A DNA stretch of 64,000 bases from positions 425,624 to 489,623 of the forward strand of contig NZ_KV917376.1 in the NCBI RefSeq assembly GCF_002019695.1, given 5' to 3'. Position numbers and translations under genes: made by a program. The DNA comes from Evansella clarkii. GTDB lineage: Bacteria > Bacillota > Bacilli > Bacillales > Salisediminibacteriaceae. The stretch's first letter is position 1. Each line of letters begins with the position of its first letter. Below, piece after piece: positions 3,369 through 64,000 of the stretch. Below the pieces are notes generated by a model. It made no database searches. It was not told the origin of the DNA and worked only from the letters and a program-made list of their open reading frames with translations.

Positions 3369-3909
3369 GGCTGGGATGATGGACGCTCCAGCGTTACCTT
3401 TCTGCTCAGATTTTCCGAAGTTCGGGCATGATGGGCGCTCCAGCGTTACCTTTTTGCTCGGTTCTTCCGAAGTTCGGGCATGATGGACGTTCCAGCGTTA
3501 CCTTTCTATGCGGATTTTCCGAAGTTCGGGCATGATGGACGCTCCAGCGTTACCTTTCTTTGCGGATTTTCCGAACTTCGGGCATGATGGACGCTCCAGT
3601 GTTACCTTTCTGCTCGGTTTTGCCGAAGTTCGGGCATGATAGATGCTCCAGCGTTACCTTTCTATGCGGATCTTCCGAAGTTCGGGCATGATGGACGCTC
3701 CAGCGTTACCTTTCTTTGCGGATTTTCCGAACTTCGGGCATGATGGACGTTCCAGCGTTACCGCTTAACTAGCATTTTCCCCCGAGCGGGCATGCAAGAC
3801 GCTCTCTCGTTACCGCTTGACCATCTTTTTCCCTCGAGCGGGTATGCGAGACGCTCCAGCGTTATCGCTCGGCAATCATTTCCCCCCGAGCGGGTATGCG
3901 AGACGCGCC
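3369..3909. repeat. 52-bp tandem repeat array A
   Basis: Units start at 3421, 3473, 3525, 3577, 3629, 3681, 3733, 3785, 3837 and 3889, an exact 52-base period, with a degenerate unit before 3421. The first seven are type 1 (TTCGGGCATGATGGACGCTC, then CAGCGTTACC). Unit 3733 is a hybrid: its second half, and the units from 3785 on, are type 2 (AGCGGGTATGCGAGACGCTC, then GTTACCGCTT). Inner palindromes such as ACGCT-CC-AGCGT and CCGAA-G-TTCGG can form hairpins. The array fills the space between the structured RNA and the arsA stop. No coding sense is evident. Confidence 0.9.
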
Positions 3910-9145: not shown

Positions 9146-10054
9146 CTATAAGTTAATTATTTGTGGACAGTTTCCTTTGCTATATAATTTATAGAACTTT
9201 GCCGGCGATAAATATTTTAGGCTTCCATGGTAGCGCCGGTTATTATAAAAATCCATATACTCATCAATCCTGTAATAGGCTTCTTCGAAGCATTCAAAAC
9301 GGTAACGTTGGTAACACTCCCTTTCGATGACGCTATGGAACGATTCAATATAGGCGTTTAAATCCGGTGATTTGCTTGGTATGCGTTCATGATATAGGTG
9401 TTGATGCTCACAAAATCTGCCAAAATGTTCACTGACAAATTGTGGGCCGTTATCTGTACGAATAATCAACTTCGAAGAAGTCTCACTTTCATAGTGAATA
9501 CCGCGTCTCAATAACGCCCCTTGAAGCATTTTCGTAATGTTTGTTGCTTTACATTCTGGACCGCGATAGTATCCAACGATACACCGGTCATATACATCAA
9601 TAGCACTAGCTAGAAAAACGAATCGTCCACTACCTTCAATCGAGCCATACTTTATATCCACTTGCCAAAGCTGGTTAGAAGCTGTTATCGTGTGCTGCTT
9701 CGCCAACCTTCGAGGATACTTAGATTTTCTTCGCTGAGGTAACAGAATATTTAACTTTTCACAGAGGCGATAGACCTTTTTAGGGTTTATTACCAACTTA
9801 TGTTGGTCTTTAAGGTAGTTGGTGAGTTTTCGGTATCCGTAGATACCTTCCTCACCCTCTACAGCTTCCATTAGGAATTCTTCAATCTGCTCATCAGATA
9901 TTTTTATACCAGTCTGAGCCAAGGAAAATCCTGGTACTGGCCGGCCCTGGAAGGACTCTTCTGTGACCTGTTTATTTTTTTGATGGTAATAATACAACGA
10001 ACGTTCCACGTTTAATGCTCTTGTAGTTCTAGTTACTGGAAAACCGTCTTTCAC
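9146..10054 (-). CDS. IS3-family transposase OrfB (DDE integrase)
   Basis: OrfB has 302 residues from a GTG at 10054. An N-terminal helical part is followed by the rve integrase core. The DDE triad is visible as WQVDIKY, RTDNGPQF and YIESFHSVIERE, and the C-terminal YNNRRYHGSLKYLSP is typical of IS3 transposases. The OrfB frame is open upstream as far as the A9 run near 10098, so the active product is probably the OrfAB fusion made by -1 frameshifting rather than OrfB alone. Confidence 0.93.
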   Translation of the reverse strand: MKDGFPVTRTTRALNVERSLYYYHQKNKQVTEESFQGRPVPGFSLAQTGIKISDEQIEEFLMEAVEGEEGIYGYRKLTNYLKDQHKLVINPKKVYRLCEKLNILLPQRRKSKYPRRLAKQHTITASNQLWQVDIKYGSIEGSGRFVFLASAIDVYDRCIVGYYRGPECKATNITKMLQGALLRRGIHYESETSSKLIIRTDNGPQFVSEHFGRFCEHQHLYHERIPSKSPDLNAYIESFHSVIERECYQRYRFECFEEAYYRIDEYMDFYNNRRYHGSLKYLSPAKFYKLYSKGNCPQIINL

Positions 10055-10083
10055 CCACTCCTCGATTTCTTTTAGCAGGAGGA

Positions 10084-63151: not shown

Positions 63152-63363
63152 GGTTTGTGGTTTTATGGGGATGACAGCTCTTCATCTTATATTTAATTAC
63201 CTATCAAAATCATAGATGTCCAGTCGGCAGGTAAATTTCTATCTCATGAATATTTAAACATCTTTTAATACTGCATTTACCAGTTGACGAAATACGCACT
63301 ACGTAATATCCTATTGTATAGTCATAAAACCCAGAAAACTAATCGGAATTAGAGGTGAATGTA

Positions 63364-64000
63364 ATGAGTACTTCAAATACACAAGGGAGCTCTTTGAACC
63401 CTAATCAATTTGACGGTAAAAACCTGCTCGTTCCTGCACTGCCTCCTCCACAGAGTTTACATGTCTGGATAGGTATTGCAGCAGCAATCATATTAAGTAT
63501 CGCAACTTTCACAATCGCTGACGGCTTATTTTTAATTCAGCTTTGGATCGGACTTTTATTCGGGTTAGCATTATTCCATGCCCGCTTCGGGTTTACTTCC
63601 GCATTCCGCCGGCTTATGTCTGTCGGTAACGGACAGGGGTTAAGAGCCCATATGGTAATGCTTGCAATTGCATCTACTTTATTTGCACCAATTTTGGCAT
63701 TGGGCTTGTCTTTCGCCGGTCATGACCCGGCAGGCTTTGTCTCACCAGTAGGTGTGAGCCTGCTGTTCGGAGCATTTATCTTTGGTATCGGCATGCAGCT
63801 CGGCGGTGGCTGAGCATCCGGTACATTATATGCCGTCGGTGGCGGCAGATCATCTATGATTTTAACATTGTTCGGATTTATCGTTGGCTCTGTTATCGGA
63901 GCTGCACACTTTGATTTTTGGATGAATGATACACCTACACTTCCTGCAATCTCACTTGCTACAGACACAGGCTTAGGATACGGAGGCGCATGGCTCCTTC
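63364..64000 (+). CDS. YeeE/YedE-family transporter with in-frame TGA (candidate selenoprotein), partial
   Basis: From the ATG at 63364 (GAGGTG 6 nt upstream) 149 codons lead to TGA at 63811-63813. The frame then continues without a stop to the window end, ASGTLYAVGGG and GFIVGSVIGAAHFDFW among it. The first part (FHARFGFTSAFRRLMSVGNG, FGAFIFGIGMQLGGG) is YeeE/YedE (TsuA-like), sulfur-compound transport proteins with many helices. At the TGA this family has its conserved Cys (GGGCASGTLY). A cysteine replaced by Sec at codon 150 is therefore likely; the N-terminal RFCF-type Cys is Gly here. A hairpin at 63831-63847 fits a bacterial SECIS. A nonsense mutation or sequencing error cannot be excluded. 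The 3' end is outside. Confidence 0.75.
63831..63847 (+). promoter_or_regulatory. SECIS-like hairpin after the TGA
   Basis: TGCCGT pairs with GCGGCA (five Watson-Crick pairs and a U-G) around the loop CGGTG. The loop begins 23 nt after the TGA and has G at its second position, as bacterial SECIS elements require. Two more A-U pairs follow below an A-G mismatch. It lies inside the reading frame. Confidence 0.5.

Follow-up and report, generated by a model that had tools for sequence, protein, structure and literature searches.

The best described relative of the protein discussed here is the YeeE (TsuA) transporter of S. thermophila, represented in the PDB by entries 6leo and 6lep and, together with YeeD, by 8k1r. 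Thiosulfate has been proposed to pass through this protein along a relay of three cysteines (Cys22, Cys91 and Cys293); in the accessible part of one report Cys91 and Cys293 are described as indispensable (PMC11582611), and the title of 6lep designates an inactive mutant, C91A. A selenocysteine (Sec) form of the YeeE/YedE family, which places Sec in a membrane transporter, is listed as a prediction in reviews of 2022 and 2026 (PMC9312934, PMC13188914). In the accessible portions of these sources, a selenoprotein table includes a 'YeeE/YedE family protein, pfam04143' with WP_012471001.1 as example (PMC9312934), and the later review gives the motif GUxSG. No functional study of a Sec YeeE was found in the literature searched. 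The tabulated example is presumably a Geobacter lovleyi protein. The initial annotation of the locus analysed here had called Sec in such a transporter unusual and had doubted whether it was already described; the family is in fact in both reviews. The protein has the Pfam family, the motif (GUASG, within GGUASG, fits GUxSG) and the single Sec in common with the listed family as far as the latter is described in those portions, and judging from its sequence the gene belongs to that family, with better comparative evidence than one TGA would provide.

The yeeE-like gene and described transporters

The window, the whole 64,000-nucleotide stretch of DNA that was analysed (C1:425624-489623 of genome G000), ends within its last gene, which is yeeE-like. 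The features of this region are:

63351..63357, + strand: AGAGGTG, probable ribosome-binding site 6 nt 5' of the ATG (by eye)
63364..64000, + strand: yeeE-like Sulf_transp gene, first 212 codons (ORF reading, Pfam)
63589..63591, + strand: codon 76 (Gly), at the position of Cys22, the third relay cysteine in S. thermophila YeeE (alignment)
63811..63813, + strand: in-frame TGA, codon 150, which replaces Cys91 of S. thermophila YeeE (frame, alignment, codon comparison)
63831..63847, + strand: SECIS-like hairpin TGCCGTC-GGT-GGCGGCA, stem from 17 nt and loop from 24 nt after the TGA (folding, comparison)

The start codon is the ATG at 63364, and the gene continues past the window to a TAA at codon 422, ending at G000:C1:490252, which gives 421 codons plus the stop. 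Codon 150, in the context LGGG-TGA-ASGTLYAVGGG, is the sole internal stop. The initial annotation had described one long frame broken by TGA, open before this codon and open again to the window end; this description holds, and the further downstream stops that would be a sign of decay were looked for and none was found, the frame being clean to the TAA beyond the window. The standard code splits the gene into two ORFs, and annotation is therefore likely to miss it. The full gene matches PF04143 (Sulf_transp) with an E value of 8e-73 and a score of 246.1 bits against a gathering cut-off of 27. The piece before the TGA matches positions 1-73 of the profile (E 2.6e-14) and the piece after it positions 76-309 (E 4.1e-49), so that both are one continuous PF04143 domain, and the in-frame UGA has a conserved protein family on both sides, as in a selenoprotein gene. 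No other PF04143 gene was found in G000.

Comparison with 6leo gave a sequence match with an E value of 4.9e-16 at 23% identity, and the predicted fold (mean pLDDT 88.3) matched the same entry with a Foldseek E value of 1e-11. Residues 150, 372 and 76 align with Cys91, Cys293 and Cys22, respectively. In the model, helices 131-147 and 151-159 are separated by a break that holds Sec150, represented as Cys, and Cys372 occupies a break between helices 349-368 and 373-382. The first 212 residues, those within the window, include no Cys, as had been noted from the visible part, and Cys372 and Cys421 are in the part outside it. With respect to the three relay cysteines of TsuA, two positions are kept (Sec150 and Cys372) and the third is Gly76; this place is Gly in all 61 covered rows of a 62-row alignment and in 48 of 48 rows of a second one. 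The protein differs from S. thermophila YeeE in the Sec for Cys91, the Gly for Cys22 and also in the lack of a YeeD neighbor: no yeeD (TusA-like) gene lies beside yeeE in G000, where the four TusA-family hits are at C1:2.19-2.20 Mb and 2.63 Mb and yeeE is at 0.49 Mb. In genome G139, which also has the Sec form, a TusA-family gene adjoins a second PF04143 gene (G139:C5:28033-29666) in a YeeD-YeeE-like arrangement.

The scores against curated models of both TsuA (NF041049, 72.2 against a cut-off of 645 bits; NF052577, 87.4 against 400) and YedE (NF033796, 156.5 against 350; TIGR04112, 20.1 against 200) are below their cut-offs. Judging from distant homologues, the protein is probably an importer of sulfur or selenium oxyanions or of sulfane sulfur; that thiosulfate itself is the substrate has about even chances. 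We infer that it could import thiosulfate or related sulfur (or selenium) species independently of YeeD.

A dedicated selenium importer (for selenite, selenosulfate or similar), as opposed to a sulfur transporter, appears unlikely. Such a role would agree with the proposal that YedE of other lineages is a selenium-related transporter, which is found in the accessible part of one review (PMC9312934) and has as its basis, in that of another paper, the co-occurrence of YedEF with selenophosphate synthetase (PMC11097638). It would also agree with the best NF033796 (YedE/FdhT) stretch, which covers the C-terminal half with an E value of 1e-45; YedE/FdhT and the protein encoded here have the superfamily in common and are similar in this half. 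On the other hand, the NF033796 score is well below the cut-off, yeeE is outside the sel cluster (C1:489 kb as opposed to 3,116-3,122 kb), and 12 genomes of the two sets scored for selA have a Cys orthologue without any selA above cut-off, codon 150 being TGT or TGC in all 12. Furthermore, the accessible part of a study of Methanococcus maripaludis reports the deletion of five putative transporters, yedE included, none of which was required for any selenium species tested, and the yedE deletion strain still used every one of them (PMC11097638).

Decoding of codon 150

The reading of codon 150 as Sec was examined through comparison with homologues. A search of 60 genomes (G000 and 59 relatives) gave a match in 41 and an internal TGA in 2. 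Another 32 loci came from a named-genome scan, and more from a sample of 397 genomes of the order, in which the internal TGA was present, among the matches listed, in G000, G240 and G139, a list that does not include G003. The codon 150 count covers the 88 loci examined, not every match from the genome searches, and it is a count of rows, not of species, as some species are present twice across two collections (L061 and L092 share one coding sequence, and the protein pairs L060/L094, L065/L105 and L076/L086 are identical or at zero distance in the tree). TGA was found in 6 rows (5 distinct sequences from 5 genomes), TGT in 69, TGC in 12 and CTT in one. Cys is thus encoded in 81 of the 82 non-TGA rows, and Leu in a single distant row (L088). 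This, with the alignment to Cys91, bears out the conserved family Cys that had been claimed for the position of the TGA, and TGA at the same codon, looked for in other genomes, was found in four more.

Besides G000, the owners of the TGA are G003 (same genus, 97% identity), Halalkalibacterium ligniniphilum L1 (77%), Salsuginibacillus kocurii DSM 18087 (68%, with a coding sequence identical to that of G240) and G139 (65%, from the genus of G240). There are no other stops in the five distinct TGA sequences. The Bacillales Cys orthologues, mostly 390-425 amino acids long and about 60-81% identical, have Gly76 and Cys372 in common with the TGA forms but differ from them in the TGT or TGC at codon 150 and in that, as a class, they do not keep the hairpin. 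Plasmid records matching yeeE numbered 113, all below 60% identity, 12 of the 113 being listed.

The genome G000 has the full Sec set, as expected of a genome with a selenoprotein gene. Profile searches identified selA (E 3.1e-163) and selB (E 1.7e-108), and these genes, the tRNA-Sec gene (62.2 bits, anticodon TCA) and selD (E 1.6e-123) are all within C1:3115651-3121859, each above its family cut-off. The selD gene has its own in-frame TGA in the context KAGUGCK. Between selD and selA, on the selA strand, there is a SelW-like Rdx ORF (PF10262, E 8.6e-22; L003:7476-7715 of G000:C1) with a CxxU TGA. The hairpins of selD and of this SelW-like gene in G000 have 3-nt loops beginning with G. Counting yeeE, at least three TGA-Sec genes are therefore likely in G000. 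A selA gene above cut-off is found in all five TGA genomes, and also in 27 of 32 and 21 of 29 genomes of two sets from this order, so that its presence alone proves little and is no predictor of Sec, many genomes with the Cys gene having selA as well. Arrays of 21- and 42-nt repeats (TTCGAGAATTGAATACC..., TCGCAACAAG...) lie in or near the gaps between the sel genes (L003:5947-6213 and 9917-10063). At L003:1337-3105, near the tRNA-Sec gene (3648-3744), there are ORFs that resemble, by eye, a broken IS21-type transposase pair.

The bacterial SECIS model given in the accessible part of PMC13188914 consists of a stem of 4-16 bp, a loop of 3-9 nt with a G in either of its first two places and located 16-37 nt from the UGA, and an energy of -7.5 kcal/mol or lower. 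The initial annotation had pointed to a hairpin with a G-containing loop at the right distance, and folding gave a 7-bp stem, a GGU loop 24 nt after the TGA and an energy of -9.3 kcal/mol. All five distinct TGA sequences conform to the model, as compared with 8 of 81 Cys rows, and in all five the hairpin is at the same codons with the loop starting 23-24 nt after the UGA. The loop is GGU in G000, G003 and Halalkalibacterium (-9.3 kcal/mol each), GGG in S. kocurii (-9.8) and AGGUG in G139, where the hairpin has 6 pairs, a 5-nt loop and an energy (-7.6) barely past the limit. By the same model, hairpins of -7.5 kcal/mol or lower follow 64 of the 2321 TGA triplets on both strands of the window, that of yeeE included, and 33 of the triplets have one at least as stable as that of yeeE. 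The shared seven-pair helix has 7 pairs in four of the five distinct TGA sequences and 6 in the other; among the 82 non-TGA rows it has 7 pairs in 3 and 6 pairs in 15 (Fisher p values, which ignore relatedness, of 8e-5 for seven pairs and 9e-4 for six or more). The second pair is G-C in G000, G003 and Halalkalibacterium and U-A in S. kocurii, with both sides changed, and is also U-A in G139.

The codons that encode the hairpin are conserved beyond the amino acid sequence, strikingly so in the comparison with Halalkalibacterium alone. G000 and Halalkalibacterium have identical codons at 9 of 9 positions in 155-163, as compared with 41% of 302 amino acid-identical codons gene-wide; complete identity was reached in 8 of the 220 nine-codon windows scored, and the six listed among these all overlap codons 155-163. 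The close Cys homologue L091, from genome G352 (81% protein identity), keeps 1 of 8 codons in this region. Compared with S. kocurii and with G139, 5 of 7 are kept, the hairpins there being different in sequence. This synonymous conservation is the pattern expected of an RNA element inside a coding region. The folding energy of the raw 36-nt stretch did not separate Sec from Cys sequences (10 of 57 Cys rows are at least as stable), and for this reason a chance hairpin was rejected on the basis of the position-specific helix, the published SECIS model and the codon conservation.

These results indicate that the product of the gene is very probably a YeeE/YedE (TsuA-type) membrane transporter in selenoprotein form, with Sec almost certainly inserted at codon 150; the candidate selenoprotein of the initial annotation is thus supported by the Sec machinery, the intact frame and the same TGA codon in four further genomes. 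It is very improbable that the TGA is a plain stop, be it in a decaying gene or in one whose product is half a transporter of 149 residues, the other half perhaps being translated on its own. TGA is a stop in the standard code, single-half family members of about 130 amino acids, PmpA and PmpB, are described in the accessible part of PMC11582611, and an ATG is present at codon 165, but a start there would omit the conserved ASGTLYAVGGG. Moreover, the parts before and after the TGA have dN/dS values of 0.094 and 0.044, respectively, between G000 and G003 (the one pair used, since several more distant comparisons gave a saturated dS or none at all), which points to purifying selection that continues past this codon. 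Decay and a plain stop were rejected on these values, on the lack of other stops in the five distinct TGA sequences and on the same codon in five genomes, and the conserved hairpin codons also argue against them. UGA readthrough occurs in Bacilli, but the insertion of Trp or Cys by near-cognate readthrough is hardly credible given the full Sec system of G000, the homologues with Cys, not Trp, at codon 150 and the positioned SECIS-like hairpin.

Phylogeny and genetic context

The tree was built with 82 of the 88 rows, with the omission of L061 (duplicate) and of L088, L045, L067, L081 and L080 (partial, distant or from short contigs). The five TGA sequences group with the Cys gene of G352 in a single clade (bootstrap 100, SH-aLRT 94) that is surrounded by Cys genes, and therefore do not represent five independent origins. 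The named or placed members of this clade belong to Bacillota or to the window's own order. The tree requires two changes at codon 150. These can naturally be read as a single Cys-to-Sec change with a reversal in G352, two gains being equally costly. The Cys gene of G352 (L091; G352:C24:24909-26126) is the exception in a clade of Sec genes and, as selA is present in G352, a candidate case of Sec reverting to Cys while the machinery was kept.

G002 and G007, from the genus of G000, have Cys genes that are in another clade and share no neighbor with the G000 locus in the stretches compared. An in-place Cys-to-Sec conversion within the genus was rejected on these grounds, and the Sec form most likely reached G000 and G003 by horizontal transfer. 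The neighbors of yeeE in G000, a DASS-type symporter (PF00939, Na_sulph_symp; L002:10202-11845, - strand, downstream of yeeE and on the opposite strand), DUF6612 and DUF4870, are common to G003 alone among the ten loci compared, and consequently have little weight as a clue to the function of yeeE.

A cysteine-rich ORF of about 195-210 amino acids with no Pfam match is conserved beside or near yeeE in G352 (L124:8184-8771), G240 (L122:10190-10825) and G139 (L123:10773-11357); no counterpart was found in the G000 stretch compared. The genes close to this ORF are ones that, by eye, we take to resemble those for 2-oxoglutarate dehydrogenase E1 and E2.

The literature searched gave no description of a Bacillota Sec clade that lacks the third relay Cys and the YeeD neighbor, and no paper with both Salsuginibacillus and selenocysteine. 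The terms 'YeeE' and 'YedE' are absent from the main text of PMC2398784, PMC5029168 and PMC12013277, which are sources of the reviews; the original Sec-YeeE description may include members of the TGA clade. The most useful new points would be the Sec/Cys pair at 81% identity, the absence of the third Cys and of the partner, and the horizontal spread.

Proposed mechanism and implications

In the mechanism that we propose, the UGA at codon 150 would be decoded as Sec by SelB with tRNA-Sec through the hairpin that starts 17 nt after it. Within the first half of the protein Sec150 would lie where a helix is broken, with Cys372 in a similar position in the second half, and would act as the 'second cysteine', the middle place of the relay proposed for S. 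thermophila YeeE. Compared with a thiolate, its selenolate may be superior as a ligand or nucleophile and may bind the terminal sulfur of thiosulfate, or of another sulfane-sulfur or selenium analogue, more readily. As the third Cys is replaced by Gly and there is no YeeD/TusA neighbor, the substrate probably leaves the protein directly into the cytoplasm and is not passed on to a docked YeeD. A more speculative possibility, to which we assign a low probability, is that in this YeeD-independent YeeE branch of haloalkaliphilic Bacillota Sec150 is a covalent chalcogen relay, which would form a reversible selenyl-sulfide with the sulfane sulfur of the substrate that is resolved via Cys372. This would link substrate movement to redox reactions within the pore, as opposed to the S-H...S hydrogen bonding proposed for the all-Cys protein, and the Sec gene would be moving horizontally among Sec users as an upgrade of the Cys form.

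The genes of G000 and Halalkalibacterium, with Sec, and of G352, with Cys, are natural Sec/Cys pairs at about 80% identity that differ at a site whose solved C91A mutant is titled inactive. Such pairs make it testable what advantage selenium gives in a transport pore, and whether thiosulfate is relayed in this family by hydrogen bonding or by covalent chemistry.
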